A stretch of DNA of 64,000 nucleotides from an uncultured Roseibium sp. GTDB taxonomy: Bacteria > Pseudomonadota > Alphaproteobacteria > Rhizobiales > Stappiaceae. This document shows positions 8,328 through 37,292 of the stretch, in pieces. A program made the position numbers and the translations under genes. The notes beneath the pieces are model-generated. The model had not been told where the DNA came from, did not search any database, and saw only the letters and a list, made by a program, of their open reading frames with translations. Every line of letters starts with the position of its first letter. Within the stretch, counting starts at the first letter, position 1. Location of the stretch: assembly GCF_947499295.1 (NCBI RefSeq), contig NZ_CANMNP010000010.1, positions 1-64,000 of the forward strand. The letters run 5' to 3'.

Positions 8328-9307
8328 GCAAGCCTCCGGCGTTCTTTTAGAACATGCAGAAGAAGCAAGGCGAAAAAACCTGTAGATGCTGCAAGCGCCA
8401 GCAGGACATATCCGAGACTTTCTCTCGGCCGGTATGTTGACGTCTCGACCGCGCGAGGCTCTTGAGCGTCAATGCGCGTGTAAATGTCGGAAAGTGCTGC
8501 CTCGTCTCCAGCAAAGTAATAGGAACCATTAGCCTGTTCAGCGATATCTTTCAGACTTGCCTCGTCGAGCTTTTGTTCACCGCTTCCTGCCGGATCACCG
8601 ACACCGATCGTTATGATGTCAATTCCGTCCTTTGCTGCGATCGCCGCTGCATTGATTGGTGTCATTCGGCTGCCGGTGTCCGCACCGTCGCTCAAAACTA
8701 TCAACAACTTGTCGGCAATCTCACTTCCTTGAAACGTCTTGATTGCCAGACCGATAGAATCGCCGAGTACGGTGTGCGGTCCTGCCATGCCAACCTCGGT
8801 TTGATCAAGAAGCGCTCGCACACTCTCCAGGTCTTCGGTGAAGGGGGCTTGCACAAACGCTTTTGCGCCAAACACGATCAACGCAATGCGATCGCCATCC
8901 CGCTCAGCAACAAAATTTCCAACCACCCGTTGGACAGCCGCCAGTCTTTGCGTCTTTTCCCCATTGGTTGCCACAAAGTCTCTCTGATCCATCGAGCCGG
9001 AAATGTCTATTGCGAGCATTACATCCCGCGCTGCCTTTTCGAGTACGACGGGGTCTCCGACTTTTTCAGGGCCGGCAAGGGCACAAACTGCAAACGTCCA
9101 GACCAGTCCAGCAGCAACAACTTGAACGACCGATCGTGAAAAAACGACTGAGCCAGGTTTGGGCTCTTTCCCCACAGCAGCTGCCAGTCGCCTGAAGAAT
9201 GGCAGGCGCAGGGCCGACACTCTTTCACGGTGCGCTGGAACCAGGAAATAGACGGCAAAAGGCAGAGGCAGAAGCAGAAGCAAAATGGGCGCGTTGAACT
9301 CGATCAT
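8324..9307 (-). CDS. vWA domain membrane protein (BatA-like)
   Basis: MIDAS-type DISGSMDQRD, VLSDGADTGSR; N- and C-terminal TMs. Confidence 0.85.
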   Translation of the reverse strand: MIEFNAPILLLLLPLPFAVYFLVPAHRERVSALRLPFFRRLAAAVGKEPKPGSVVFSRSVVQVVAAGLVWTFAVCALAGPEKVGDPVVLEKAARDVMLAIDISGSMDQRDFVATNGEKTQRLAAVQRVVGNFVAERDGDRIALIVFGAKAFVQAPFTEDLESVRALLDQTEVGMAGPHTVLGDSIGLAIKTFQGSEIADKLLIVLSDGADTGSRMTPINAAAIAAKDGIDIITIGVGDPAGSGEQKLDEASLKDIAEQANGSYYFAGDEAALSDIYTRIDAQEPRAVETSTYRPRESLGYVLLALAASTGFFALLLLHVLKERRRLA

Positions 9308-11861: not shown

Positions 11862-12899
11862 TCAATTTGGAGAGCCGCTCCACACACGGTTCCAGTCTTT
11901 CGCCATATCAACAAGCAACCAACCGCGATCCGGTCCCTCATGCAGTCCTCTGACAAGCTTGCCAACATGACTGTTCCGGTCATAAGCCCATTCACGTTCT
12001 GCATCCGTGTGATGAACGATGAGCCCAAACCTGGGACCGTCGCCTGACGTCGCCCATTCCAGCATCTCAAAATCGCCGTCCGAATTGCCGCCCACGAAAA
12101 TCGGTTTTTTACCGATCTTGTTGTCGATCCCCACCGGTTTGCCGGCCTTGTCATCGATAAACGCAATTCCGGGATCCTTTAAAATCGTCGGAACGCCTTC
12201 AACCACGGCATATCGTGTCACTCCTGCACTGCCGATTACCTTTTCCGGAGGAATGCCATAAGCCTTTTCGACGAAAGCCCGCATAAAATGGATGCCACCG
12301 CCGGACACGATATACGTGTCAAAGCCTTCGTCCCTGAGGAAACGCAACAACTCCAGCATCGGCTGATAAGTCATGTCTGTATAAGGCACATTTTTTGTAG
12401 GGTGTTTTGCGCTCTCTATCCAGTTGGCAACGTCTTGTGTGAATTCATCTACTGAAAGCCCAGCATGGGACGCCATGACTATTTCCAGCAGGCCCTCTTC
12501 ACCTGACTTTGCCACTGCCTCCATATCGCCAGCCGCCGCAGCTTCCAACGTTGCACTGGTCAATATTTCAGGATTGGCGGCCGCCTTTTGTTTCAGTTTG
12601 TCGAGGGCGTAAAGCAGTTGGAAATAGACAGGTTTTTCGGCCCAAAGTGTCCCGTCATTGTCGAATACAGCGATCCTGTGGCTCTGGGTAACGTATTCAG
12701 GCGAGGCAGGGTCGGTAACAGACCCGACGAAATCAATAATCTGTGCCTTAGCTGCTCCATCGTTCCACGAGGGCAGGGGATCGGCGAGTGCACTTCCCGT
12801 TACCATCAGAACAACAGCAATCGAACAGAACAGGCGCATGTGAGCCTCCCGAAAATTTCTAAAGTGCAATGAAAAACCGCGATGGACCCTGAAGTCCAC
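11862..12899 (-). CDS. Secreted HAD-superfamily phosphatase-like protein
   Basis: DNDGTLW motif, YIVSGGG, GNSDGDFEML; N-terminal signal peptide. Confidence 0.8.
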   Translation of the reverse strand: MDFRVHRGFSLHFRNFREAHMRLFCSIAVVLMVTGSALADPLPSWNDGAAKAQIIDFVGSVTDPASPEYVTQSHRIAVFDNDGTLWAEKPVYFQLLYALDKLKQKAAANPEILTSATLEAAAAGDMEAVAKSGEEGLLEIVMASHAGLSVDEFTQDVANWIESAKHPTKNVPYTDMTYQPMLELLRFLRDEGFDTYIVSGGGIHFMRAFVEKAYGIPPEKVIGSAGVTRYAVVEGVPTILKDPGIAFIDDKAGKPVGIDNKIGKKPIFVGGNSDGDFEMLEWATSGDGPRFGLIVHHTDAEREWAYDRNSHVGKLVRGLHEGPDRGWLLVDMAKDWNRVWSGSPN

Positions 12900-17662: not shown

Positions 17663-17795
17663 GACCTGACAACGCTATCGAACAAATTCATGATCCTGGC
17701 ACATTACGGTCACAAAGTTCTGATGTAAATTGTTTGTATTAGAACATTTGAGTGGCAGCGAATTGCGCCATCAAAGGCACTCAAGGGGTATCATC

Positions 17796-19021: not shown

Positions 19022-19044
19022 TTGGCTGGGGAACCTGGATTCGA
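19022..19044. repeat. Distal att site (duplicated tRNA-Gln 3' end)
   Basis: Identical to 37218-37240. Confidence 0.92.
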
Positions 19045-20940: not shown

Positions 20941-23298
20941 TCAAAGCCCAAAGCTGCCTCCAGTGTATCCGTTCTCATCTGCCCTATTCTGTGCCGACAA
21001 GCGCGCGGTCTGCCGTTCTTTCGCCGCTTTCGCCAACCCCTTAGCGCCAGCATAGGCAATCGTCGGATCTTCCTTCAGCGCGGCGCGGGCGTCATGAAGG
21101 AGCTCTTCCTGATGCCTTAATTGGAGCAACCGGTGCCGTCGATCTTCATCGTGAACGACCTGCCGGGTTTCCTGAGCGGTTTGTAAAATACGAAGCGCTC
21201 GGGTCGCCTCAGCTTTCGCGCGGCGCAACGGTTCGCGATCGTCAAAAAGCGCGGCCAGTTCACACGATGCTTGATCCCAGCGGGCAGTTGCCCCTGACAC
21301 CCAGGCGAGTACGCCGGTAGGACGCTCTCCGCCAGTTCGAAGCCGCAGATCAGTGATACGGCTGCCGTGGCGGTCATCCCAAGATGCGTGCTCACAGGCG
21401 GCAGCGGACAGGTGGCGTCGGGCATCGGTCAGTTCCTTCGGCTCCGGGAGCTTGTCCGGATGACCAAGATCAGTGATCTTGCTCCGAAGGGCGGCGTCAA
21501 GTCGGTCGAGGAAGCGCTCGGCGGCGGCGAGGGCTTCTTGCGGGGAGCGGCGCGGACGGCGTTTGCCGGATGATGGATCACCCGCGACCGTTCCGGAATC
21601 GCGCTGTACGGGCTTCCTAGAGGGTTGATAGTTCTCGGAAGTGCGCGCCTGAGGTGATTTTAGGGAATTTTCGGCACCCGAAACCGAGGAAGAGCGTTTT
21701 CGGGCGCCCGACTGCCAGCCCTCCGGTTCGGCGTCCAGGAGGTCCACCTGCGCACGGGAGCGTGCGGCGTCGAGGTCACCCGAGACAACGGCCTGTTCGA
21801 CCATCATCCGGACGTCGACAGGCTTCTCGCCGATCAGGCGGTGAAGAGTACCGAGCGGCACGCCGTTGCGGAGGACGCTCCAGGCGCCGTCGCGGCCGGG
21901 CGCAATCTCGTAACCAGCGTTCCGGAGCGCGGCGACGCCTCCGGACTCCAATGCGGTCCGGATCTCGTCGCGGACAGCCCCCGTGCGCTTGGCATGCAGG
22001 CGCCGGGCGGCGCCCATAAGCACCTTTTCGCCACCATAGGCAAGGGTGGGGTCGGCCCGGAGGGCGTCAACCGCGGCGTCGAGAACTGCGAGCTCGCGGC
22101 GGCTCCGAGCGACCTCGCGGCGGGCGCCGGTGTCGTCGGGAGACTGCGAGGATTCGAGGATCTCACCTTTCAGGCCCGCGCGGCGATCCTTTAACCAGTG
22201 GTGCGCGGCGGCGACTGTACGGCGGTCGTCGTGACGGGCGCGGAAGGCATCGCTAAACTGCCGTGCCTGGTCGGCAGCAGCCTCGGAAACCTGCTCGGCT
22301 CCGGTCTTCTTTTTATCGTGAGGGAGGGCGCTCGTCGGGCCTAATCCGGATCGTTCCGCCCGGAATTTTGCAGACTTTTCGGATGATGGATCACCCACGG
22401 CAGGATGAGAATCGCGCTGTACGGGCTTCCTAGAGCGTTGAGCGTTCTCGGTTCTGCTCTCTTTACGCGAAATCTGATCCGGAGCGGCTTCCATCGCGTT
22501 CCGGATGTCGGCGCGTTTCTCACCGACGATCCGGTCCAGCGAGCCGATTTCGACGCCTTCGCGAGCGACAATCCAGACGCCCGATTTTCGGCCGGGCTCG
22601 ATGTCGTACCCGGTGGAGCGTATGGCCTCGGCACCGCCGTCCTTCCAGGCGTCGCGAATTTCGGCGCGGGCGTCGGAAAGGTCGATACCCCGGCGGGCAA
22701 GGGCTTGCCGTTTTTCGGGAGAGGCTGCGGACGTCGGCTTGTCTGGATCAGGACCGTACGCCCCTTCCAGCCAATCGGCGACGTCCTCGCGGCCGTTGTT
22801 CCGGAGCCAGCGGACGGCGGATTTGTGATGTCGGCCAAGAACGGGCGCCTCGCCGAGTTCAAATTCAATGAGCCGGGAAGCAGTTTCAAGTTTGATTTTC
22901 GAGAAGCCGGATTCGAGCACTTTGCCGGACGGTGAGACGCGACCGAGGACAAGGTGAGCGTGGGAATGGCCTTCGCCCGCCGGACGTTCCTTGTCATGAA
23001 CGACGAATGCGACGGGATGGTCGGCCGCGCCGAAGTGATCGCGGACGATTTCGGCGGCACGGGCAAGTTCGTCGTCGGTCAGCGCGCGGGAGGGACTGAG
23101 GTGAATATGCAGAGCTGCTGCCTCGGCGGATGTCGAATCCCGCAAGCGTTCCATGTCCCGAACGGCACCGGGAAGGTCGGTCGCGAGCGTCCCGCCGAGA
23201 ATCCGAACGCGCGGCTCGTTCTCGGGCTTGAGCAAATGCCCGACCAGCGCCCTCGTATCGCGCTGGGTCCGGACGTGGCGAGTGACGCCCGCGATCAC
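20941..23298 (-). CDS. Relaxase / mobilization nuclease (MobA-like)
   Basis: Histidine motif GEGHSHAHLVLGRVSPSGKV; partner MobC overlaps by ATGA. Confidence 0.85.
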   Translation of the reverse strand: MIAGVTRHVRTQRDTRALVGHLLKPENEPRVRILGGTLATDLPGAVRDMERLRDSTSAEAAALHIHLSPSRALTDDELARAAEIVRDHFGAADHPVAFVVHDKERPAGEGHSHAHLVLGRVSPSGKVLESGFSKIKLETASRLIEFELGEAPVLGRHHKSAVRWLRNNGREDVADWLEGAYGPDPDKPTSAASPEKRQALARRGIDLSDARAEIRDAWKDGGAEAIRSTGYDIEPGRKSGVWIVAREGVEIGSLDRIVGEKRADIRNAMEAAPDQISRKESRTENAQRSRKPVQRDSHPAVGDPSSEKSAKFRAERSGLGPTSALPHDKKKTGAEQVSEAAADQARQFSDAFRARHDDRRTVAAAHHWLKDRRAGLKGEILESSQSPDDTGARREVARSRRELAVLDAAVDALRADPTLAYGGEKVLMGAARRLHAKRTGAVRDEIRTALESGGVAALRNAGYEIAPGRDGAWSVLRNGVPLGTLHRLIGEKPVDVRMMVEQAVVSGDLDAARSRAQVDLLDAEPEGWQSGARKRSSSVSGAENSLKSPQARTSENYQPSRKPVQRDSGTVAGDPSSGKRRPRRSPQEALAAAERFLDRLDAALRSKITDLGHPDKLPEPKELTDARRHLSAAACEHASWDDRHGSRITDLRLRTGGERPTGVLAWVSGATARWDQASCELAALFDDREPLRRAKAEATRALRILQTAQETRQVVHDEDRRHRLLQLRHQEELLHDARAALKEDPTIAYAGAKGLAKAAKERQTARLSAQNRADENGYTGGSFGL

Positions 23299-23717
23299 GA
23301 CGCGCTCGCTTCACCGCCTCCGGTTTCGTGAGCGGTGACGGCTGAATGAAGGCCGCGGACGGCGGCGGTCAGGCGGTCAAGCGCGTCCGGATCAACGCGG
23401 CCGCCCTCGTGGGCATAGCGAGTGAGCTGGTTGATGTTGTTTCCGATCTGCCCGACGGCACCGGTCCACTTTCCGACGGCACGGGCGAGGTCGGTACGTG
23501 CGGCCCGGCGCGCAGGAATTGGCAGACCGGCGGCCCGGGTCAGGACTTCGCGCGCCCACGTGCCTGGGCCACATCCGGCCGCTTCGGACGCGGCATCGAT
23601 CGCCCGCCGCTCGGCAGGCAGGAGGCGGGCACTCACGCTCGCCGTCCGCTGCCGAGTCTCGGAGCGGCGCCGGGGAGCGGTAGTCGTCTCGGCGGATGTG
23701 TTGTCGGGTTCGGTCAC
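23295..23717 (-). CDS. MobC-like relaxosome accessory protein
   Basis: SARLLPAERRAIDAASEAAGCGPGTWAREVLTRAAG... AVGQIGNNINQLTRYAHEGGRV; GTG start at 23715-23717 with AAGGAG RBS (track start at 23942 is too far upstream). Confidence 0.85.
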   Translation of the reverse strand: MTEPDNTSAETTTAPRRRSETRQRTASVSARLLPAERRAIDAASEAAGCGPGTWAREVLTRAAGLPIPARRAARTDLARAVGKWTGAVGQIGNNINQLTRYAHEGGRVDPDALDRLTAAVRGLHSAVTAHETGGGEASAS

Positions 23718-23947
23718 AGCGGCTCCTTTTCTTGGCGCCCGTAAGGGTGCGGTGGGGGTCAACGGGGGAGGCTTGCCCACCCCTTGCCAGATCGGGTGGT
23801 AACGGAGTTGCCGCCCGCTGCTGGCTCCCTTCCAAAAGTGAAGGGCCTTGCTCAACGATGATTGTGCTGGAAGGGACTGACCAGGGCAAACTGCCGGCGA
23901 AAACACCGAGGGTGTTGAAGCCCACTCCCGTAACTCAGGCAATGGCG

Positions 23948-25447
23948 TCAGGAGTTCTGGGATTTTCCCTTTGTGGTCTTTCTGACCGTCGGAATCTGTT
24001 CGATTGTTCTCCGCTTCTTGAGCGGCTGATCCGCAAGATGCTTTAAGCTCCTCCTTTGTCCGTACGTGTTGTCTTCAGGGAACAGAAAGGCTGGCCTTGG
24101 AACGGGTCGCCGAGGCCGCTGAACCGAGACCGTATTGGGTTCTTGTACAGACCGTATGACTGTATCTTCACGTGCCGAACGCGTAGGATCCAACAGAGCA
24201 AATGCCGAACCAGAAGAAACCCCAGCACCAGAAGGCTTGGCAGATAGACCCGTATTTCCGGAAGGAACCGTAGTCTCAAGATCCCTACCAGCAGATTGAT
24301 CATTGGCCGTAGGTCTGATGGACACGCCGCCACTGTCCCCTTGGGTCCCAGCTGCCATATGTGGGTCAGTTTTTCGATAACCCATTGACGTAGTTGTTTT
24401 AATCCCGGCGTTGCTTGTGACTCTGGAATAGGCCTTATCCATCTCTTCCATCAACCTGTCCTTCTGGTCTTGCCGTACAATGAATGAATCATGGATCGGC
24501 AGGGCGGTAATGCCGTTCTTAACGGTCATTTCTCGTAGGACGCTCTTGGCAATTTCCGCATCAACGTTCTGAAGCCGCAACCCTGCTCCCGAATGGAAGA
24601 AGCGCTCGATCCGCCTATGCCGCTGCTTGATGGCTTTCACCAATTGTCTGGCGGTCGATTTGTCGCCGCCTACATGGGGCTGGATTGCACCGACGGCGCT
24701 CTCGTAGCTGCCTGCGTTCAGCAGGATGTTGAACGCCCGTTTACACGAGCTACGATCCCACCCATCGATCGTATATGCATCGCTTTCGAGTGAATGACCT
24801 GACATGGCATAAACAAGGCGCGGGTGGAGCATTTCGAAATCAAGTTCGCAAGTGGGTGCCCCATCAATCAGGAAGTGGATCCGGTCGCATGAGCGAACCT
24901 GTTGCCACCATCCACCGTAAAACCTTCCACCAGATGACCAGCCGCCGTTATAAACTCGATAGAGCTCATCAAAATCAGGATAGACCGCGTGCCCAGGAAA
25001 GCGGATCATCCGGCCGTCTGGCACGCCTGCGTTCAAGCGGATGTCCGCTTCGGCAATATGTCTGTTGAATTTCTCCAGAAACTTTCGTTCCCTGGCAATC
25101 CGATCAGTCTCTCGATAGGAAACCAGCTTTCCGTCGGCATCCTTCAATCGCATCAATTCGCCGACCTTGCAGTCCGCTTCTGGAAGATCGAGGTCGCGAA
25201 GGAAGGGAGCAGGCATGTAGGAACTCTGGATGCCGTTTCCATTCGGTTTGGGCGGCCTCCTGTCGTGTTCAACCAGCAGACCAGCCTCTACCAATGCATC
25301 GACCGAATGCACGACGGTGGAGTAGCCATACTCCGTCCCCCAATATCGGCTTACAGGTTCGTAGAACTTCTTCCGGCGGCTGTACGATGTGCGCTGGAAA
25401 GGTGCTTCCTTGGCAGCAAGCGCGGCATCATAGGCGATGGATGCCAT
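23948..25447 (-). CDS. Family-A DNA polymerase-like protein, possibly a replication protein with N-terminal winged-helix-like region
   Basis: Motif A CELDFEMLHPRLVYAMSG; motif B DRSSCKRAFNILLNAGS (Rx3K); LQNVDAEIAKSVLREM resembling the PolI MQGTAADIIKRAM segment; motif C ALPIHDSFIV; no exonuclease domain. Confidence 0.6.
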   Translation of the reverse strand: MASIAYDAALAAKEAPFQRTSYSRRKKFYEPVSRYWGTEYGYSTVVHSVDALVEAGLLVEHDRRPPKPNGNGIQSSYMPAPFLRDLDLPEADCKVGELMRLKDADGKLVSYRETDRIARERKFLEKFNRHIAEADIRLNAGVPDGRMIRFPGHAVYPDFDELYRVYNGGWSSGGRFYGGWWQQVRSCDRIHFLIDGAPTCELDFEMLHPRLVYAMSGHSLESDAYTIDGWDRSSCKRAFNILLNAGSYESAVGAIQPHVGGDKSTARQLVKAIKQRHRRIERFFHSGAGLRLQNVDAEIAKSVLREMTVKNGITALPIHDSFIVRQDQKDRLMEEMDKAYSRVTSNAGIKTTTSMGYRKTDPHMAAGTQGDSGGVSIRPTANDQSAGRDLETTVPSGNTGLSAKPSGAGVSSGSAFALLDPTRSAREDTVIRSVQEPNTVSVQRPRRPVPRPAFLFPEDNTYGQRRSLKHLADQPLKKRRTIEQIPTVRKTTKGKSQNS

Positions 25448-25620
25448 GGCCTTTTCGGCTCTGCGGTTTGGGCACTTCGGAAGATCGAGAACATCTGAAA
25501 GCTACTTGTAGTCCGCTTTCCACCGGAAGCTCAGAGGACGGTCACGATCGTATCCGACGTGCTCATCGGTCTCTGGCTCATCTAATTGTTGACAATTTTT
25601 TTTCAGATCGGTGCTGGTTT

Positions 25621-25899: not shown

Positions 25900-26751
25900 T
25901 TACTCATTATGTATGTGCTCGCGCACTTCGTCTTCGATCTCGTCCACCAGATCGGTAACCTGCGACTCCTCAAAAATCTCCGGCTGAAATGGTGAGCCAC
26001 GTAAGATCTCCAAGGCATTCTGATATGCTGGCATCAACTGATTGTTTTCAGGAGCGCCGACAAGAAAATGCAGCTTCAAGGGTTCCGTCGTATCCTCAGC
26101 GACAGCGGCGAGGTGGCCGCGCCAGCGCCGTACCTTGTCCTTGATGCCTTCTGCGTCAGCGAGGTCCAATGATAGCGGCTCATACGCATGCCAACGTCCA
26201 TTTTTCCAAGCATGCTTGAACTCGATGCTATCTGTCTTGCCGGAAACGGTTTTTTTCTCCAAAGAGATATTCAGGTTACGCTCGGCCAAGAGAGTCCGTA
26301 CTGGGCGCCAGATGTCTTCATCCGTCTTCCGGGAACGTTGATTGACGTCGTAACGGCCAACAAATCGTTCGTAAATCCGCTCGAAAGTCTTCTCCGGATT
26401 ATCCGTGAGACCAGATCCGACCGATGACCATTGGAGCGAGCTATCGTCATGAGGGATGACGGACTTCGCGTATACCGAAACCACGTTCTTCTGCTGGAAC
26501 AGCGCTTCTTTTTGAATGTCCTTCGCCGCGAGCTTCATTCCGCGCTCAACGGTTCTCATCGCCGAGACAAATGCCTCTCGGTCGAGATCTGGAAACACAC
26601 TCTTGATCCGACCAATCGTCTTCCGGGTTCGCCACTTCAACGCACCATGGGAGGGGACGTGCAGGATCACTCCGACATTGACGAATTCGCTCGTCATGAC
26701 GTCGTGAACATATCGCAGAACGATAAAGCTATATGGCTGGCGGTCACTCAT
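25900..26751 (-). CDS. DUF3037-like protein
   Basis: MSDRQPYSFIVLRYVHDVMTSEFVNVGVILH typical of DUF3037; ATGA overlap with the HipA-like gene. Confidence 0.8.
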   Translation of the reverse strand: MSDRQPYSFIVLRYVHDVMTSEFVNVGVILHVPSHGALKWRTRKTIGRIKSVFPDLDREAFVSAMRTVERGMKLAAKDIQKEALFQQKNVVSVYAKSVIPHDDSSLQWSSVGSGLTDNPEKTFERIYERFVGRYDVNQRSRKTDEDIWRPVRTLLAERNLNISLEKKTVSGKTDSIEFKHAWKNGRWHAYEPLSLDLADAEGIKDKVRRWRGHLAAVAEDTTEPLKLHFLVGAPENNQLMPAYQNALEILRGSPFQPEIFEESQVTDLVDEIEDEVREHIHNE

Positions 26752-27542
26752 GCCAAAACCCTCCGCATTTCATTCAAGCAGCCATCGATATTATCTCGCG
26801 CACCCCTGATGAGCTGCAACGCTGCATCGACTGCGGGCCCCACTCCGGCCCAGACATTCGGAACAGCATCCCGATACTCCAGAATCCTCTCATCAGACAA
26901 GCTACTCCAGCAATCCTTGATAGGTTTATAATCTATAGCCCGTCCTTTGAGGCCCTGAAGGAAAATATGGGCACCCGGTCTATCAATCCAATTTAAGCCA
27001 CCTGGGTTCCAAGGCGGAACCCAGCCGATTATCAGACCGGCATTAAACGCGAGTTCATGATCGAAAATCCGAAGATCCGTACCGCGAACCATACAGTTGG
27101 GATTCCCGTCGCGCCTGTCAGGATTCTGAATGATGGCGTCGAACATGAATATGGCGGCAGCTTCTGGCACCATTATGTCCGGAATCGTATTTCCTTTGGC
27201 CCAGGCGGCAAATTGATTTGGAACTTTCAACGAACCAAATCCGATCTCGGAACTGTTGTTCAACTTCGTCCGGAAGCGATCGTCGGTAACCACAGCCGCG
27301 AAATCTCTCGATATTTCCACGCGGTACGGACGAGGGATCGGAAGCCTCAGATCGGCAGCCAGGCAGGCGCCAACAACTTCACGGGCCAAGCTGGATACGC
27401 CTTGATCGCAGCCTGCGGATACCTTGCAGAACAGATCAACGGATTCCCCTGCTTGATCCTCACAAATCAGGAGACCAGGCTCGGTTCTACCGCTTAATAC
27501 CGGTCGGACAAATTCGGTCGCTATCGCAAGTTCCAGCAACAA
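26748..27542 (-). CDS. HipA-like kinase
   Basis: LFCKVS lysine, catalytic-loop-like NPDRRDGNPN, metal-binding FDHE. Confidence 0.8.
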   Translation of the reverse strand: MLLELAIATEFVRPVLSGRTEPGLLICEDQAGESVDLFCKVSAGCDQGVSSLAREVVGACLAADLRLPIPRPYRVEISRDFAAVVTDDRFRTKLNNSSEIGFGSLKVPNQFAAWAKGNTIPDIMVPEAAAIFMFDAIIQNPDRRDGNPNCMVRGTDLRIFDHELAFNAGLIIGWVPPWNPGGLNWIDRPGAHIFLQGLKGRAIDYKPIKDCWSSLSDERILEYRDAVPNVWAGVGPAVDAALQLIRGARDNIDGCLNEMRRVLA

Positions 27543-27589
27543 ATCCCCCCTTCAACGCCAGTTCGAGTTTGGCGCCACCATCATTTTGA

Positions 27590-30283
27590 TCAGTCGAGCA
27601 GCTCTCCGGCCTGCGAATATGATGCCGCGAGCGATGTCAGCGTTGCGCTGGGTTGAACCGCGTCATGCGGGATAAGGACGTAGGTCCATGGCTTCCCGCC
27701 AGTCTCTTTCGCGTGATTGTTGGCATGGTAGACCCACTTCCGGGCCGCCTTGGCCTTGGCTTGAACAACCGGGTCGGCCATTTCGTTCTTCGCCTTGATC
27801 TCGACAATGAATTTTTCCTTGTCGGTCTCGACGACGAAGTCGGGTTCGTATGACTGTCCTGCGGCGTATTCGATCCGGAACTGGCCGACGCCCGGTTTCA
27901 TCCATCGTTGAACGGCCGTTTCGCTCGGAGCCTCAAGGATAACGGCAAATTCCCGTTCCTGGTCGGAATGGAATTTCTGATATGGATAGCAGCACTTGGA
28001 GAACCCTTCGAAGACGTATTTGGGCATGTCCTTCAACGGGTTCACAGACGTTCGGAAATTTCGAACGAATGCAGTACTCGGGACGTTGTAGGCTTGCGGT
28101 TTGAGCATTACGAAGCCGCGAGACACGCTCGCGCGGTAATCGGTCGGGCTTTCCCAGTAGTGCGTTTTCATCTGCTCGAATATGAAGCGGGCAAGGTCCT
28201 TTCCGTGGACCACCAACACGTTCTCAACATCGTCAGATGAGGGGAGGTAGGACTCCAGGCGTCGCACCATTTGTCCAGCCAGTTTGAAAAGAAGCTCGCT
28301 CTGGGTCTCGTAGTCGATCTGCGGCAAGTCCATCAGGTGCCGCACCAGATAGTTTTCGGGACGGTCTTCCTTGGCATTCTCGACCGTCCTTGCAAGAAAT
28401 GCGCGGGACTCGTCGCGAAGCCTCTGAACCATGATCTGATCTGCCAACGGTTGCTTGGCGATTGTTTCGAGATTCGAAAGATCGAAGTCGTGATATCCGA
28501 AGTTCACTTCGCTTGTCGGGAGAACCACGATTTCCGGAATTGAAATCGTATAGGTGACGAGTTGTTTCGTCACCTTGGCGACAGTGGCGGCCACGTCGGT
28601 TTTTTGTTCGAATGTTTCGAACGTTCCCTGTTCCGGAGCCATCACCTCTTTGACAATACGCGTGATTTCGGCCTGAACTTCGGGCGTGTCGAGCTTGTCG
28701 ATCCCCGTCTTGATTTTCCGCTCGAACTCTCGCTCGATGACGTCCCAGGTGACGCGGGCGACCTGCCGTTCTTCGTCGCTGTCGAACGTATAGGGTGTTT
28801 GTTCGGATTCTCCGAACGTACCAGCCCCTCCGGTCAACATCGTTTCGACATTCGAAGGAGCGGCGACGACATGGGCGCCTTCGTCGGAGACATCGCCGCT
28901 GCCGCCAACGATAACGGTCTTGCGGATCGAAATCAGCGATTCTGGATCGCGCGCGGCCTTGATGACGTCGTCAAAACGATCATGGGCAATGACCGTCAGG
29001 CGGTCCACCGCCTCCACTCCGGTTCGGCGGCCATAAGGAAGACGAAGACCACGTCCCAATGTTTGTTCCGTAAGGATGTCCGACGCAGAAGCGCGGAGGG
29101 GCACGATCGTATATAGGTTCGTGACGTCCCATCCTTCTTTCAGCTTGTTGACGTGAATGACGATGTCGGTTTCCGCGTCATGTTCCAAGGCGACGAGTTT
29201 GGTGGTCGCTTCCTCCGTCTCTTCGCCGCGCGTGCCGGAATGCACTTCAATGACGCGTCCGCGGTATCGTCCCTGAAAAAACTCGTCGGACTCCACGTAC
29301 TTCCGGATCTCTCCGGCATGGGCCGTGTCTTGGGCGACAACGAGCATGAAGGGATGGACTAGCTTGCGGCCAGTCTGTTGGGAATAGATTGCAAGTTCAG
29401 CCTTCGTATGCTCGTGGCAATGGATGCCGTCTTCCAGTTTCATCCGTTCGAGCTGTTCCGGACTGATGCTGTCAGCCCGGAATCCTTCACGGGTGGCGAC
29501 GGCAGGGTCTTTGACGTAGCCATCCTCCATCGCCTGTCCCAAGGGGTAGTCGTAGATCACATTCTTGAACAGAGCGGATCGGGCGCCGACAGAACGCGGC
29601 GTCGCGGTCAATTCGAGGCCTATAACGGGTTTGAGTTCGGCGATCGCCGTCATTCCGGCTTTGGCTCGGTACCGATGAGCCTCGTCCATCAAGAGCACGA
29701 GATCGGGAAGACCTGAAAGATAGTCGAAATAGCTCTCGCCGATATATTCGTGCAGCTTTCGAATCCGGCCGGCTTCCTTGTTGATCTTGTCGACATTGAA
29801 AATGAAGACGATTGCCGTGTCGCCCAGCAGGTCCCCACGCACGGCGTAGCCTCGTTCCCAGTTGTCTCCTGTCTCGACAAGGGGAGGGACTTGGGCGAAT
29901 TCGGCTATGCCCCGGAACACATATTTCGGCGAATTCTGTTGGCTGAAATCGGCAACCAGTTTCTCGTAGATCGTTGTGTTGGGGGCGAGGATAAAAAAGT
30001 GCTTTGAACGTCCTGTGAGATACAAGTAGGCGATGAAGGCGCCCATCAATCGGGTTTTGCCGACGCCCGTTGCCAGCGCGAAACACAGGGACGGAAACTC
30101 CCGTTCAAAATCGGATAGGCTCGGATAGGTCGCCCTGATGGCATCCAAGGTTGTGACGAGATCGACGTCTTTCGAAAATTCGATGGTATCCAGCACGTCA
30201 GCGAGAATATCGAGTGCCTCGGCCTGCGGTGTCCGTAGGGAAAGACGCGCCTTGATCTGGCTTAGCTGTCTCTGCAACATCAT
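27590..30283 (-). CDS. Type III restriction Res-like helicase/endonuclease
   Basis: ATGVGKTRLMGA Walker A, LLMDEAHRYRA, ELTATPR, C-terminal PD-(D/E)xK (YEPDFVVETDKEKFIVEIKAK). Confidence 0.9.
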   Translation of the reverse strand: MMLQRQLSQIKARLSLRTPQAEALDILADVLDTIEFSKDVDLVTTLDAIRATYPSLSDFEREFPSLCFALATGVGKTRLMGAFIAYLYLTGRSKHFFILAPNTTIYEKLVADFSQQNSPKYVFRGIAEFAQVPPLVETGDNWERGYAVRGDLLGDTAIVFIFNVDKINKEAGRIRKLHEYIGESYFDYLSGLPDLVLLMDEAHRYRAKAGMTAIAELKPVIGLELTATPRSVGARSALFKNVIYDYPLGQAMEDGYVKDPAVATREGFRADSISPEQLERMKLEDGIHCHEHTKAELAIYSQQTGRKLVHPFMLVVAQDTAHAGEIRKYVESDEFFQGRYRGRVIEVHSGTRGEETEEATTKLVALEHDAETDIVIHVNKLKEGWDVTNLYTIVPLRASASDILTEQTLGRGLRLPYGRRTGVEAVDRLTVIAHDRFDDVIKAARDPESLISIRKTVIVGGSGDVSDEGAHVVAAPSNVETMLTGGAGTFGESEQTPYTFDSDEERQVARVTWDVIEREFERKIKTGIDKLDTPEVQAEITRIVKEVMAPEQGTFETFEQKTDVAATVAKVTKQLVTYTISIPEIVVLPTSEVNFGYHDFDLSNLETIAKQPLADQIMVQRLRDESRAFLARTVENAKEDRPENYLVRHLMDLPQIDYETQSELLFKLAGQMVRRLESYLPSSDDVENVLVVHGKDLARFIFEQMKTHYWESPTDYRASVSRGFVMLKPQAYNVPSTAFVRNFRTSVNPLKDMPKYVFEGFSKCCYPYQKFHSDQEREFAVILEAPSETAVQRWMKPGVGQFRIEYAAGQSYEPDFVVETDKEKFIVEIKAKNEMADPVVQAKAKAARKWVYHANNHAKETGGKPWTYVLIPHDAVQPSATLTSLAASYSQAGELLD

Positions 30284-32067
30284 TCTTCACCTCCCAATTC
30301 GAAGAGGGGTAGTGCCGTCTTTGGTTCCTTATGATCGCTGTAGGGTACGTCGTCCTCCGTTACCTCCATTGCGTCTTCGCTTTCAATCAATGGAAGGTCT
30401 GCAATCCGGAGAGAATAATCGTCACGGCCCCATTCGCACTTCGCGAGGATCGAATGCGGAATTTTCTTGATCGTTAGATTTGGAAAACTGTCCTCGTTCG
30501 CATTGAATGCCTTGCAACAGACAAGGAGGGTTCGCTTCGGCCCCAATTCTTCAGACAGTTTTTTAAGAGCGTCGTAGGTTAGAGACTGGGTTGTGACATA
30601 GATGAAGTCGGTCTCGGTGGAGTGTCCATGCCTCCAATATTCCCCGGGGTCTTGACTAGGGGCATAGGTAAATCCGAGATGCTTACACAACGCCTCTGCT
30701 AACATGGCTGGATTATACTCTTGGGATATGATCCAGTTTCCAAAGCGGTCTTTTGTAAGTAAAGACGGCGCAAGGTGATAGAACCTAAATCCTCCACCAC
30801 CTTTCCAATTAGCGGCTGCGGTTATCCCGCTGGCGTCCTTTCCGTCGATGACAGATTGTATACGAGGAATGATGTGCGTCGTTGCATGATCGCCCAACTC
30901 AACCATGATCCATCTTCGACCCATTTTATGGGCAACGGCGCCTGTCGTTCCTGAACCGGCAAAGGAGTCGAGCACAATGTCTCCCGGAGAGGAAGCAAGT
31001 TCAATGCATCTTTTTAACAATGCTTCGGGTTTCTTGCCTTTTGGAAATTTGACCCCACCCTCGTTATGGAGATTGTTCGAAAGCAAATCATCCCAGATTG
31101 TCGTCAGGGGCTCACCGGCTATGTATTCTCCGTCGATTAACTTGAGTTTTGTAGTATAAAAAAGTATTCTCTCTCCATTAAAAAAATACATATCGGAAAG
31201 ATTGTCGCGTTCGAGCAATTTAACTTCGTTGCGCTTGCTTTTCGTTTCGTCAATTAGCGTACGTGCGGCAGCGCTCACCGCGTTGTAGTCTGGTCTTGCG
31301 AGGCGAACTACTGACTTTGCATTTTTGTGTACGAAGTCGGTGACTTTTTCCTCAAAGTCAGAACCTAGAGCTTTTTTCAGGCCACGCTCTGGAAGATCAA
31401 GCGATTGCGCGAAAGCTCGCGTGAGCGTAATAAAACGCCATGTTGAATAATGGTCGTCTATATTCTCAATAAACTGATTGTATCTCTTGTCTCGATCTGA
31501 ACGAGCAGTAAAAATGCGATTTGGCGTCCATTTAGATTTATCTTTTGAATAAATTAGAACGAAGTTCGAATTCGTTACTACGCCCGGATTGATCGATTTG
31601 TGTCCAGTTGCCGCGCCTTGTTTAAATGTTACGATTGAAATCCGATTGCTTCTTCCAAAAATTTCATCTGCGACAGCTATAATGTAAGCAAGCTCATTAT
31701 CGTCGATGTGAAGAAAAAGCGTCCCATCATCAGACAACAATCTATGAATTAATTGCAAGCGATCCCGCATGAGCGAAAGCCACAAGGAATGCTCGAGGCC
31801 ATCTTCGTAATGCTCAAATGCCTGCTGTGTATTGAACGGAGGGTCGATATATACGCACTTAATCTGTCTTTCGAAGTCGGCTTCAAGGGCCTTCAAGGCA
31901 AGTAAGTTATCTGCGTGAATGAGTAAGTTCTGAAACTGGTCGAATTCGGAATGCCGAACAGCAGCATGGTAGGAGAGGGTTTCATCTTCTACTAGAATTC
32001 GAGGTTCAAGCTTGTGAGCGTCGTTCTTTCCGATCCAGGTCAGCTCAAGACGCGTCTTCTTACTCAT
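30280..32067 (-). CDS. Type III Mod-like DNA methyltransferase
   Basis: YIDPPFNT (motif IV) preceding DSFAGSGTTG (motif I), beta-class order. Confidence 0.92.
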   Translation of the reverse strand: MSKKTRLELTWIGKNDAHKLEPRILVEDETLSYHAAVRHSEFDQFQNLLIHADNLLALKALEADFERQIKCVYIDPPFNTQQAFEHYEDGLEHSLWLSLMRDRLQLIHRLLSDDGTLFLHIDDNELAYIIAVADEIFGRSNRISIVTFKQGAATGHKSINPGVVTNSNFVLIYSKDKSKWTPNRIFTARSDRDKRYNQFIENIDDHYSTWRFITLTRAFAQSLDLPERGLKKALGSDFEEKVTDFVHKNAKSVVRLARPDYNAVSAAARTLIDETKSKRNEVKLLERDNLSDMYFFNGERILFYTTKLKLIDGEYIAGEPLTTIWDDLLSNNLHNEGGVKFPKGKKPEALLKRCIELASSPGDIVLDSFAGSGTTGAVAHKMGRRWIMVELGDHATTHIIPRIQSVIDGKDASGITAAANWKGGGGFRFYHLAPSLLTKDRFGNWIISQEYNPAMLAEALCKHLGFTYAPSQDPGEYWRHGHSTETDFIYVTTQSLTYDALKKLSEELGPKRTLLVCCKAFNANEDSFPNLTIKKIPHSILAKCEWGRDDYSLRIADLPLIESEDAMEVTEDDVPYSDHKEPKTALPLFELGGEE

Positions 32068-34949
32068 GCTTCAATCTCCCACCGGATCGTCATCACCGGT
32101 GTAACATTCGGGGTGATCGCCAGCTTGGCGGCGACCTCGTCCAGCTTGGTGTCGACTTCTTGGCGGATCTCACGGAGGGTCTTGAACGTGGACAGTTTGA
32201 GTTCGTCCCGTTCCTCCTCGAGCTTCTTGATCCGCCGTTCCTCGGTCAATTTCTCGCCCAGGGGAATAGCTTGATTACTTCGTAGGGCCTTGCGGGCCGC
32301 GCGCGCTTCGATGTCCAATTCCTTGACCCGGAGATCGTTGGCCCTTTCAAGATCCTCGGCATAAGCCTCGAGCTTCTCCGTTTCCTCATCGAGCCACTTC
32401 CGGTTCTCCTCCTCGGCAAGCTTTTCCGCCTCGGCGAGGGCGATCCGGTCAATTGCCGCCATCTGGTCAGCCGGATAGGTGTTGTCGATGTCGCCAACGA
32501 ACGCGGGCAGCTGGAACAGCCGTTCAGCCGTATCCTGCGCCACGATGGAGCCGTCATCTGTAACAGCGGCGAGAACCACGCTATCGCGCGATCCCATGGC
32601 CGTTTCAGCCTTCAACAGGGATACTCGCAACCAACCCGCTTTCCCGAGATAAGCTTCCAGATCGGACAGCCTCGGCTGGCCCTCATCGCGATAACCCTGA
32701 TAGTTGAAAGTAAGCTTCGCGTCCGGAAGGGAGCGAGCCATCGTTTCCCGAACAAGTTCGTCGGCGAGCGTGCCGTCGCCTAGGCGAAAGAATTGCCAGC
32801 CGCGTTGATCTGCCTCAGGCCAAACGGTCGACCAAGTCTTTCCCCCATGATCAAAGCTCGGAATGTCATCGTTTCGGAATGTCGATCCCGGCAATTCGGC
32901 GCGGGCGAGAAGCCACAGTCTCCTTTCGAACTCCGACATGGTTCGTTCGATTTCGCCGCCCCTCTGCCGGAGCATGTCGACGATCGAGGCGTCAAATAGA
33001 TCGAAGAGCTGTTGTCGGGTCTCCGCCATGTCGGCCTTGATCTGATCTTCCAGTTCGACTTCCAGCCGCTGGAACGCCTCGTTCACTTCGGTCTCGGTTC
33101 GACATGCCTGAACGACGGAAAGGATCTTCTTCTCGAAGTCGATCCCGGACTCAATAGCGCCAAGGACTTGGTCACTTGCACCGAACAGGCCTTCGAACAA
33201 TCTGAACTTGTTGCTCAGCAGCTCGTAGATCCGCTGTTCCGCGCGGTTCTTGCGGTTCAGCATGTTCACGACGGTGACGTCGATCTTCTGTCCATACCGA
33301 TGGCAACGTCCGATCCGCTGTTCAACACGCTGAGGGTTCCACGGAAGATCGAAGTTGATGAGAAGGGAGCAGAACTGGAGGTTGATGCCTTCGGCGCCGG
33401 ACTCTGTCGCAATCAGGATCGTTTTCTTGTCTGACTTGAAGGCGTGGACAATCGCACTCTTCATGTCGGCGGCTTTTGATCCGGAAACAGCGTCGGTGCC
33501 AGCCTTTTCCGTCAGCCATTCCTTGTAGATTTTTTGGCTTTCCGGATCGCTGTTGGAGCCATTCATAAGAACAACTTCGCCAGCGTAGCCATTCTGGGAG
33601 AGGATTTCAGCAAGGTATTTTTGGGTGCGAACGGACTCGGTGAAGATTACAGCCTTTCGCTGGCCGCCACGAGCGACGACCTCATCGAGCACTTCCGGAA
33701 GACGCTTGAGGAGCTTGTCGCCCTTGGAGTTGTTTCCGATCGACCTGGCGAGGTCGAGATATCCCTCAAGTTCCGCGATTTCCGCCGCCAGTTTGGCCTG
33801 ATCGACAACGGGCGTCTCGTCAGCGTCTTCCTGCTGGCCCGAATTATTGTCGTCCCCGGCAAGAGCGGCGTCATCTGCGATCTCTTCCGCAACCTCAGCG
33901 GTATCGTCAATGTCTTCGACGACACATTCATCTGCGACCAGATTGCGCTTCAAGCGGGCGATGACGTTCTCGAGGAAAAGTATGATCGCGGCAACAGACG
34001 ATCCAAGCGTCTTCCGAGCGCCGATTAAGACCAACTGGTTCGGTTTTGACCCGAAAGCGATAGATTCTGGGTTCTGGAGGTATGCGGAAACACCTTCGTA
34101 GAGTCGCTCTTCGAGACTGTAAGGTTCGAAATCGAACGTGACGGCCAGCCGGTTCGTGTAGTTCACGTGACCTGCCGCCTGAACGTCGCGCCTCAGGTGT
34201 CTCTTATAAAGCGGCGCCATCCGGCGACGAAGGGAGAGCAGCGACGCCTTGTCTGTCGCTCTTCCGTACATAACCCTGAAAGACTGCTCGTCTCCAAAGA
34301 AGTGGTCATCAATCATGGAAACGAGGCCGTAGAGTTCCATGAGCGTGTTCTGCAACGGGGTGGCAGTCAGTAAAACCTTGAAGCGTGATGACAGCGCTTC
34401 CTTAAGACGCTTAGCCTGAGCCGCAACGTTGCGTTTGTAGACATTCCGGAGGCGGTGGGCTTCGTCGATCACGACCAGATCCCAGCCGATACGATGAACC
34501 TCATCCGCGTTGCGCGCGGCGTATTGGTACGAAGTAATGATAATGGCAGAGGAATTTTCGAAAGGGCGCTGTTGTCCACCCTTGACCGCGTCCCGGTATG
34601 TCTTTGAATCAAGGATCACACTCGGGAGAGAGAACTTTTCCTGCAATTCCTGTTGCCATTGGGTCCGCAATGATGCCGGAGCAATCAGCAGTATGTTGCG
34701 TTTCCGCTCAGCCCATTTTTGAGCAATTACGAGGCAGGCTTCGATGGTCTTTCCGAGGCCGACCTCGTCGGCGAGGATGACGCCCTTGGATAGCGGCGAG
34801 TGCAAAGCAAACCGCGCGGCTTCAACCTGATGAGGCTTCATCTCCACCCGCGCCGTGGACAATGACTTCGCAAACGCTTCGTCGCTTCTTCCTTCAAGCG
34901 TAATGCGATTGGCGAAGAACTTACTGTGATAATGCGTGTAACCTGTCAT
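32064..34949 (-). CDS. SNF2/HepA(RapA)-like helicase
   Basis: GVILADEVGLGKTIEA, VVIDEAHRLRN, LLTATPLQNTLMELYGLVSMID, QRVEQRIGRCHRYGQ. Confidence 0.93.
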   Translation of the reverse strand: MTGYTHYHSKFFANRITLEGRSDEAFAKSLSTARVEMKPHQVEAARFALHSPLSKGVILADEVGLGKTIEACLVIAQKWAERKRNILLIAPASLRTQWQQELQEKFSLPSVILDSKTYRDAVKGGQQRPFENSSAIIITSYQYAARNADEVHRIGWDLVVIDEAHRLRNVYKRNVAAQAKRLKEALSSRFKVLLTATPLQNTLMELYGLVSMIDDHFFGDEQSFRVMYGRATDKASLLSLRRRMAPLYKRHLRRDVQAAGHVNYTNRLAVTFDFEPYSLEERLYEGVSAYLQNPESIAFGSKPNQLVLIGARKTLGSSVAAIILFLENVIARLKRNLVADECVVEDIDDTAEVAEEIADDAALAGDDNNSGQQEDADETPVVDQAKLAAEIAELEGYLDLARSIGNNSKGDKLLKRLPEVLDEVVARGGQRKAVIFTESVRTQKYLAEILSQNGYAGEVVLMNGSNSDPESQKIYKEWLTEKAGTDAVSGSKAADMKSAIVHAFKSDKKTILIATESGAEGINLQFCSLLINFDLPWNPQRVEQRIGRCHRYGQKIDVTVVNMLNRKNRAEQRIYELLSNKFRLFEGLFGASDQVLGAIESGIDFEKKILSVVQACRTETEVNEAFQRLEVELEDQIKADMAETRQQLFDLFDASIVDMLRQRGGEIERTMSEFERRLWLLARAELPGSTFRNDDIPSFDHGGKTWSTVWPEADQRGWQFFRLGDGTLADELVRETMARSLPDAKLTFNYQGYRDEGQPRLSDLEAYLGKAGWLRVSLLKAETAMGSRDSVVLAAVTDDGSIVAQDTAERLFQLPAFVGDIDNTYPADQMAAIDRIALAEAEKLAEEENRKWLDEETEKLEAYAEDLERANDLRVKELDIEARAARKALRSNQAIPLGEKLTEERRIKKLEEERDELKLSTFKTLREIRQEVDTKLDEVAAKLAITPNVTPVMTIRWEIEA

Positions 34950-35427: not shown

Positions 35428-37134
35428 TCAGGCACGCGCTTCCGTCCGACGTCGCCGCGAACGAAGAGAGCGTGGGGAAGGAATAGACCCGGAAGGGTCG
35501 GAATGGCTTTTCAGGAAATCGAGGGGAAGGGGGCTTTCAAAACCCTCAACGACTTCCTTGAGCTTGGATACCGTCATCCTTTTTTCGTAGGTCGCACCTT
35601 CCCCCCGAAGCCCCTCATGGCCCATGACCGAGTTAATGTGGCGTTCTAGATAGTCAGATGATGCCAGAACGGTCTTGAAGGTATGCCTGAAGGAGTGAAA
35701 GACTACTTTCCGGCCGAAACCGAGGCCGGTTTTCAGTCGAGAAAATTCACGACTGAATTCGGCACCAAGTTTATTATCTCTGTTCGGTACCATGCCGGGA
35801 AAAAGTCTGTTTGAGTTCTCCTGAAGGCGCTTTTCTACAAGCTCAAGAAGACCGTGTTCGATAAGCCAAGAATGGATCGGAATTCTGCGCTCACCGGCTT
35901 CTGTTTTAGGATCCCAACCGTCCGGATGCCGCTGAATGACAAAGCAGGGGATGCCGTTCAGCGTAGCAATGTCATGGCTGGGTCGTAGGCGGCAGATTTC
36001 CTCCAATCTCATTCCTGAATGTAAAGAAATCAAAGGAAGCCAATGCAACGCGCTGTCTGCTGATGCTGTCCTGTAATCCCCCGATCTGAACAATCGATCG
36101 AGGCCTTCCGCTGACCAGTCATCCCGATCTCGGCTGCTTGATTTCGTACCCGGGAATGAATGTCCTGAGAAAGGGCTTTCTCCGTACGGAAGATGGCGTT
36201 GGTGCGTCAACCATGCCCAATAACCGTTCATGGCCGTCATATGCCGTTTGACGGTTTTCATGGTTGCGCGATCCGCGCCAGTTTTATCGGCTTGCTCGAT
36301 TGCTTTGAGGGCATGAACAGCCCGTCCTTTGCCATGTGTCGAAGGTAGCCGGAGGAGCTGCGAACGGAAAATGGCGGCGTCCTCGCGAGAAACTGCACCG
36401 ACACGTTTGTTGCCGATAATCTCGCTGAACAGACGCACGGCTACACCGTACTGCCGGGCTGAATGAGAGCTGATTGCTTTCCGGTCACCCCAGCCCATGG
36501 TTAGTGCGTTCTGCCATTCGGTCGAGTACTTCAGCACCTCTGGGGTATTCAATTGGACGGTTGACTGAGTGGACTGTTGTTTCGGATCAGATGGAGAAGA
36601 CGATGCCTCGATCTCTTCGGGACGGAAAACCTCTTGAATGCGTCGTTCCACCCTCTCGGTGAGCATGGAGACGAGCACCTCGAGAGTTCGAGCAATCGTC
36701 TGATTGTCGAATGGTCCTGGATAACCGGCCGATGAAAGCGCCGCGTACGCCTCGTGGTCCCATTCTTGTTCCGCGGTCCAACCTTCGTTTCCCTGAGTCA
36801 GAAGGCGATAGGGAACGTCTTCGCTCTCGTAACGCAATTCTGCGGGCGTCATTTGATCCAGGACCGCTGTAATATTTCTCTGCCAACTGGGCTTCGATAA
36901 CCAGTGGCGAGCTGATGCGCGGATGTCTTCATCCGTCAGAGAAAAATCCTCGGCCAAGTCGAAAAGCCTTTCAGAAACAAGGTAAAGAGCCGCTGCTCGT
37001 CTTCTTGCTTCACTACGCACGGAAGTTTTTAAAGTGCGGTAAATTTCCTTGAGGCCAATTCGAGGTTGCAGTCGCTCTGGAACCCTTCTGCGGAATGAAA
37101 AACCGGAGCCTTCCCGGAAGAAATAATCGGGCAT
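35428..37134 (-). CDS. Tyrosine recombinase/integrase
   Basis: SGMRLEEICRL (Arg box), HSFRHTF, VMGHEGLRGEGATYEKRM; adjacent to tRNA-Gln. Confidence 0.93.
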   Translation of the reverse strand: MPDYFFREGSGFSFRRRVPERLQPRIGLKEIYRTLKTSVRSEARRRAAALYLVSERLFDLAEDFSLTDEDIRASARHWLSKPSWQRNITAVLDQMTPAELRYESEDVPYRLLTQGNEGWTAEQEWDHEAYAALSSAGYPGPFDNQTIARTLEVLVSMLTERVERRIQEVFRPEEIEASSSPSDPKQQSTQSTVQLNTPEVLKYSTEWQNALTMGWGDRKAISSHSARQYGVAVRLFSEIIGNKRVGAVSREDAAIFRSQLLRLPSTHGKGRAVHALKAIEQADKTGADRATMKTVKRHMTAMNGYWAWLTHQRHLPYGESPFSGHSFPGTKSSSRDRDDWSAEGLDRLFRSGDYRTASADSALHWLPLISLHSGMRLEEICRLRPSHDIATLNGIPCFVIQRHPDGWDPKTEAGERRIPIHSWLIEHGLLELVEKRLQENSNRLFPGMVPNRDNKLGAEFSREFSRLKTGLGFGRKVVFHSFRHTFKTVLASSDYLERHINSVMGHEGLRGEGATYEKRMTVSKLKEVVEGFESPLPLDFLKSHSDPSGSIPSPRSLRSRRRRTEARA

Positions 37135-37217: not shown

Positions 37218-37240
37218 TTGGCTGGGGAACCTGGATTCGA
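37218..37240. repeat. Proximal att site inside the intact tRNA-Gln
   Basis: Identical to 19022-19044; covers the 3' half of the T-arm, acceptor stem and CCA. Confidence 0.92.
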
Positions 37241-37292
37241 ACCAGGACTAACGGAGTCAGAGTCCGTGGGTCTACCGTTAACCTATTCCCCA
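37219..37292 (-). tRNA. tRNA-Gln(CTG)
   Basis: TGGGGAATAGGTTAACGGTAGACCCACGGACTCTGACTCCGTTAGTCCTGGTTCGAATCCAGGTTCCCCAGCCA; paired acceptor stem, anticodon loop CTCTGAC, encoded CCA. Confidence 0.95.

Follow-up and report, generated by a model that had tools for sequence, protein, structure and literature searches.

DivPolA2, a family of compact polymerases named from barbaviruses and related phages (Yutin et al. 2024, Virol J, PMC11348598), recurs in Alphaproteobacteria on small elements targeted to tRNA genes, accompanied by a tyrosine integrase, and it also occurs in satellite-like contigs. We came to this family through one gene in the window, that is, the whole stretch of 64,000 nucleotides analysed here, which encodes a 499-aa protein. 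As judged from its sequence and predicted structure, this protein is a polymerase of the family-A fold and belongs to divPolA2 rather than to a new family. The novelty lies in the setting, namely integrative elements of bacteria that carry integrases and defence cargo, and no report of divPolA2 outside phages was found in the literature searched.

The polymerase gene of the window and its family

The open reading frame under study is present at 23948..25447 on the minus strand, as given in a preliminary description that had read it as a compact polymerase, and the polymerase region is single-copy in its own genome. The four polymerase motifs proposed there lie where they had been placed, and because they are conserved over 58 homologues they are not chance resemblances (conservation counts refer throughout to the alignment of these 58 homologous sequences). 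Invariant in 58/58 are G174, R175, R189, E201, D203, D223, R232, K236, L316, H319 and D320, and nearly so are N244 (57/58), S321 (57/58) and H208 (54/58); thus D203, R232, K236 and H319-D320, the residues singled out earlier as decisive for the assignment, are kept in every homologue. On the minus strand, motif A covers residues 201-209 with E201, D203 and H208 (24821..24847), motif B or O-helix residues 232-245 with R232, K236 and N244 (24713..24754), and motif C, reading HDS, residues 319-321 (24485..24493). The GRFYGGWWQQ block, residues 174-183 (24899..24928, minus strand), which takes the T/DxxGR position of family A, is likewise conserved and had been missed before. Together, the invariant GR174-175, E201, D203, R232, K236, H319 and D320 make up the set expected for a family-A active site. 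Departures from typical family A are also family-wide: the His in place of the steric-gate Glu of motif A and the Ser after the motif C Asp, both already pointed out in the window protein, and an Asn at what we take, from knowledge of the family, to be the O-helix Tyr position. With pN 0.29 and pS 0.78 between the window copy and its relative L005, the polymerase core is evidently under purifying selection over its history.

Regarding family identity, PHROG 4756 (phrog_4756, function unassigned) matches the window protein at 1.4e-44 and also Barba18A gp034 (3e-64) and AUR84708 (1.8e-91). There are tblastn matches on both the barbavirus and the AUR84708 records, and AUR84708, the example modelled by Yutin et al., falls under one homologue match of the present search; a structural match in BFVD is a Barba31A protein (E 1.5e-20). 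Vibrio phage ICP1 gp100 (L103 23114-24781; NC_015157 53113-54780), annotated as hypothetical, is a divPolA2 member as well by its match to PHROG 4756 (2.5e-163). Pfam and NCBIfam leave the window protein unrecognised, PF00476 (DNA_pol_A), which finds one polA only in the same genome, on contig C16, gives no match to it, nor does PF00940, and PDB sequence searches return chance matches or none. PF00940 weakly matches 4/24 relatives (best E 0.0014), a T7 RNAP profile aligns in register at motif C (hhalign, E 0.03, weak), and profile-profile comparisons with T7 DNAP, T7 RNAP and bacterial PolA yield matches too weak to separate DNA from RNA polymerase.

With the 58-sequence alignment as input, AlphaFold models residues 1-345 confidently (pLDDT mostly >90, core near 97), and Foldseek against the PDB finds 93 chains at E<=1e-3 (best E 3.6e-5, probability 1.00), the best 50 of the 93 being family-A DNA polymerases, so that model and structural matches agree with the compact palm and fingers proposed earlier. 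In a viral structure library the divPolA2 family itself ranks first (1.7e-23 to 7.5e-19), followed by proteins of DNA polymerase I type from about 4e-6, and viral RNA polymerases rank lower (E 0.027-0.16). According to sequence and model, the palm carries the active site, the classical thumb is absent and a separate globular N-terminal domain precedes the core; the lack of an exonuclease domain, claimed before, is borne out by both. The N-terminal domain, residues 2-79 (25211..25444, minus strand), has when folded alone the secondary structure H2-14, E20-22, H26-29, H42-54, E58-62 and E75-79. This predicted topology supports the winged-helix-like character suggested earlier, and Foldseek pairs the domain mostly with winged-helix proteins (linker histone, PadR, forkhead, replication terminator protein), none of these matches being significant (best E 0.24). 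A point now added is the C-terminal tail, residues 346-499 (23951..24412, minus strand), which is predicted to be largely disordered, with pLDDT <50 over most of it; the disorder sets in after residue 366 and affects the C-terminal ~150 residues.

An in-frame TAG lies at 25502..25504 on the minus strand, 19 codons upstream of the ATG, in a stretch homologous to the N-terminal extension that relatives have. The upstream frame reads DRPLSFRWKADYK-stop-LSDVLDLPKCPNRRAEKA, and the homologous frame of L005 has no stop; in the alignment, DRPLSFRWKADYK*LSDVL (asterisk for the stop) stands against DRPLSFRWKADYKALASVL of L005. The window copy thus lacks the conserved N-terminal RPL segment, and it may be translated from the ATG or be truncated or decaying. 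That it is a non-functional remnant, which would be compatible with the readings on the family given below, seems unlikely to us: the amber codon cutting the extension, the predicted disorder of the tail and an apparent frameshift at the palm end of L005, where the open frame stops and tblastn similarity goes on, are set against a 499-aa frame that is open with all catalytic residues intact, a Met at the position of the window ATG in L005 and L034 too, and the purifying selection on the core.

Integrative elements and satellite-like contigs

The element that carries the window polymerase is integrative and mobilizable, 18.2 kb long and inserted at tRNA-Gln(ctg) (37219..37292, minus strand; by tRNA prediction and Rfam, which recognises nothing but the tRNA). 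A 23-bp direct repeat of the tRNA 3' end, TTGGCTGGGGAACCTGGATTCGA, forms the distal att copy at 19022..19044 (+), and the proximal copy lies in the tRNA-Gln 3' end at 37218..37240 (+). When the outer flanks are joined into 665 nt, they match the same-genus genome G005 unbroken over 1-664 at 83%, and this intact empty site proves the insertion and the borders of the element. The remaining genes are all on the minus strand. Those for mobility encode a MobA/VirD2-like relaxase (20941..23298; PF03432, 1.1e-9), a MobC/NikA-like mobilisation protein (23295..23942; PF05713 6e-8, PF21983 9e-8), and a tyrosine integrase (35428..37134; PF00589 8.5e-10, PF20172). Together with the att repeats and the empty site they establish the mobilizable island of the preliminary description; a general Pfam search found no T4SS families among the large island ORFs. 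As cargo the element has a type III restriction system, with restriction enzyme subunit (27590..30283; PDLC03648, 2e-246) and DNA methyltransferase (30280..32067; PDLC03636, 7e-193), a DrmD-like SNF2 helicase (32064..34949; PDLC02619, 1e-179), and two candidate defence genes from profile searches, for a DUF3037 protein, PDC-M66B (25900..26751), and a HipA_2-like kinase, PDC-M66A (26748..27542). The run from 25900 to 34949, with type III restriction-modification, the helicase and the PDC-M66 pair, is a possible combined defence operon. A 72-bp direct repeat of 85% lies within the relaxase gene (21567-21638 and 22380-22451).

Homologues of the polymerase are present in 230 phage records, in 58 viral contigs and, in a species-level genome collection, at 29 loci mostly of Rhodobacterales. 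DivPolA2 occurs in 30/385 alphaproteobacterial genomes (8%) and in 16/299 genomes drawn from the phylum, 15 of these 16 in Alphaproteobacteria. When a region of about 10 kb on each side was fetched, a related tyrosine integrase was present near the polymerase at 18/29 loci versus 1/20 control regions of the same genomes (Fisher p = 6e-5). The linkage to mobC and relaxase, to which attention had been drawn before, is not general: no relaxase resembling that of the window was found within about 10 kb at any of the 29 alphaproteobacterial loci with a single-sequence model, and one is present in a single viral contig, L050; the conserved partner is the integrase. Terminase was absent from all 29 loci with the models used. 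In addition, 20 att-bounded elements enclose the polymerase, 19/20 with the integrase inside too; they measure 6.7-17.3 kb (median 9.1 kb), and the tRNA genes targeted by these 20 direct-att elements are those for Gln, Ser, Gly, Cys, Val, Glu, Tyr, Ala and Arg. Defence genes make up most of the cargo tested (restriction-modification of type I and type II, Old/GajA-like ATPase, PDC-S60). Of the cargo proteins put to the test, none was recognised as a replication initiator or as any further replication protein, and several are without family match. From element to element the cargo differs, with integrase and polymerase kept.

Some loci hold two or three copies of the gene, and a stand-alone transposon was considered and dropped, the copies of L072 lying in near-identical multi-kb units that are maybe an assembly product. 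In that contig (1-11746), three near-identical units of several kb carry one divPolA2 gene each, by tandem amplification or as an assembly artefact.

The closest branch to the window protein in the tree is L005, from an Aminobacter locus that has an integrase, and L034, L035 and L036 from viral contigs come after it. A further clade, L037-L048, includes short contigs on which the polymerase lies beside genes for capsid, prohead protease, portal, connector and terminase. On well-supported branches, the tree calls for no fewer than six switches from a chromosomal to a viral setting or back. With its 127-bp terminal repeat, L044 (1-9932) would close into a 9.8-kb circle; it encodes capsid, protease, portal, head completion protein and terminase, with the polymerase as sole recognised replication-type gene, and from its gene content looks like a minimal capsid-encoding satellite. 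L042, a circular contig with terminal repeats, has RepA beside the polymerase, plus ParA, which indicates that the polymerase need not be the initiator. In L041 and L038 AlpA or integrase is directly upstream of the polymerase.

A further att layout is seen in Rhodobacterales elements at tRNA-Gln(TTG), namely L010, L012, L016, L018, L020 and L023, where the 17-nt tRNA end recurs inverted, with long and nearly identical arms. L018 is the clearest case, with cores at 9291-9307 (+), 12741-12757 (-) and 17745-17761 (+) and inverted repeats of 351 bp and 296 bp at 100% identity. Where the inverted core is exact and both genes are annotated, it lies between polymerase and integrase, as is the case in eight elements (L006, L010, L012, L016, L018, L020, L136, L144); outside this count are L023, which has an inverted core with the integrase beyond the fetched stretch, and L160, with several inexact cores and three integrases. 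The window element has no inverted att core at <=2 mismatches. Such a layout would result if a circle bearing two inverted att sites used one of these for integration. A tRNA-primed reverse-transcriptase-like element, considered on account of the inverted repeats, was rejected, for the repeats are att cores plus arms fitting integrase sites, and direct copies of these cores bound the elements. The att arms contain a conserved non-coding motif, AATAGGTATAAGTAATGG (L010 9016, 11097; L012 9404, 11066; L020 9470, 16513; L023 9463, 14236), which in the A arms is confined to the Rhodobacterales tRNA-Gln lineage and absent from the window. Spaced TGCCCC repeats occur near the tRNA in L010, L012, L020 and L023, and TATAAGTA is reminiscent of the yeast mitochondrial promoter. 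In L006, the integrase gene lies between the arms of a 93-bp inverted repeat (4352-4444 and 5591-5683) that takes in the tRNA-Phe 3' end.

Proposed function of the polymerase

That divPolA2 is the element's own replication or priming polymerase is the reading we favour, with about an even chance of being correct on the sequence, the model and analogy. By sequence and model, the gene product is a minimal family-A palm and fingers in which the winged-helix-like N-terminal domain replaces the usual thumb. The integrase would excise the element as a circle, the winged-helix domain may recognise a site on it, and the polymerase might start or extend DNA synthesis at the bound site, so that the element would be copied before reinsertion, transfer or packaging. 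Such a role would parallel that of piPolB in pipolins and that of the A-family CcPol-MP primase in SCCmec elements. Several lines argue for this: the fold and catalytic residues; the nearest folds, which are DNA polymerases (about 4e-6) rather than RNA polymerases (0.027-0.16); the integrase association (18/29 versus 1/20) and the att-bounded elements around the polymerase, with borders proven for the window by the empty site of G005; the lack of another replication protein among the cargo tested and in L044; the AlpA or integrase genes of L041 and L038; and the purifying selection between window and L005. Counted against it are the RepA of L042, which speaks against a sole replication gene, the cargo proteins without family match, among which another initiator is possible, the separate PolB that barbaviruses encode for replication (PMC11348598), and the TAG of the window copy as a possible sign of decay.

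The main rival is a single-subunit RNA polymerase, which would transcribe element or satellite genes or make RNA primers, with the winged helix binding a promoter. We hold this to be less likely. Motif C reads HDS, not HDE, and the GRFY block, we assume, resembles the GR-V/T-Y of T7-like RNA polymerases; these features, together with the weak PF00940 matches in 4/24 relatives, weigh against DNA replication. The T7 RNAP profile in register at motif C and the position of the polymerase gene just upstream of head and terminase genes in several satellite-like contigs also favour transcription. Structure points the other way, ranking DNA polymerases well above RNA polymerases; the Tyr by which T7 RNAP chooses rNTPs presumably corresponds to Asn in divPolA2, the position being placed from family knowledge, and no promoter common to all members was found. 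Yutin et al. considered both a repair DNA polymerase and an RNA polymerase (PMC11348598). In the same report, phages with their own replicative polymerase carry up to three divPolA2 paralogues in varying neighbourhoods, which would suit an accessory enzyme for repair, gap filling or recombination, or for defence or counter-defence, unconnected with element replication. Defence genes are indeed frequent cargo on the bacterial elements, but integrase and polymerase stay while the cargo changes and the polymerase itself matches no defence family, so that an accessory role appears quite improbable.

Meaning and known systems

The recurring integrase partnership on compact bacterial elements gives a likely job to a polymerase known before from phages only, and elements of about 8 kb offer simple test systems. 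One polymerase links phages, ICP1 included, with capsid-encoding satellites and defence islands; should divPolA2 initiate synthesis alone, mobile elements would have a second A-family way to replicate autonomously, and the protein would be of use as a small tool enzyme. More tentatively, divPolA2 and tyrosine integrase may possibly mark a widespread and so far undescribed class of integrative elements and satellites that replicate themselves and carry defence genes from one bacterium to another. Part of this class would have two inverted att sites separating a polymerase from an integrase chamber, where the integrase would reverse the direction of replication and amplify the element in the manner of the 2-micron plasmid. 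In the yeast 2-micron plasmid, two inverted recombination sites split the circle into two chambers, and this is the layout suggested for several Rhodobacterales tRNA-Gln elements; the likeness is one of layout only, the present elements being bacterial and integrative with att sites in tRNA genes.

With family-A DNA polymerases the window protein shares the right-hand palm and fingers, the motif A Asp, the R...K of motif B and the HD of motif C, and it differs in having neither the Glu steric gate (His in 54/58) nor an HDE motif C (Ser in 57/58). With T7-like single-subunit RNA polymerases (PF00940) it has in common the right-hand fold, motif C HDS and a GR-aromatic block, whereas it is far smaller, has no T7-type N-terminal promoter-binding domain and no PF00940 match, and resembles them less in structure than DNA polymerases. 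Pipolins are also integrative elements with their own polymerase, but piPolB is of the B family, with another fold lineage and other motifs (PMC7385651). The CcPol-MP primases, which SCCmec and related elements of Bacillota encode, are also reduced A-family polymerases on mobile elements and likely serve replication; CcPol works with the small OB-fold partner MP (Rice 2023, PMC10061031), while no conserved small partner gene was noticed beside divPolA2. The phage divPolA2 proteins (PMC11348598) are the same family, with a thumb-less, exonuclease-free palm; they were described from phages only, whereas the present members come from integrative elements of bacteria, accompanied by integrases and defence cargo, and their N-terminal domain is here recognised as winged-helix-like.
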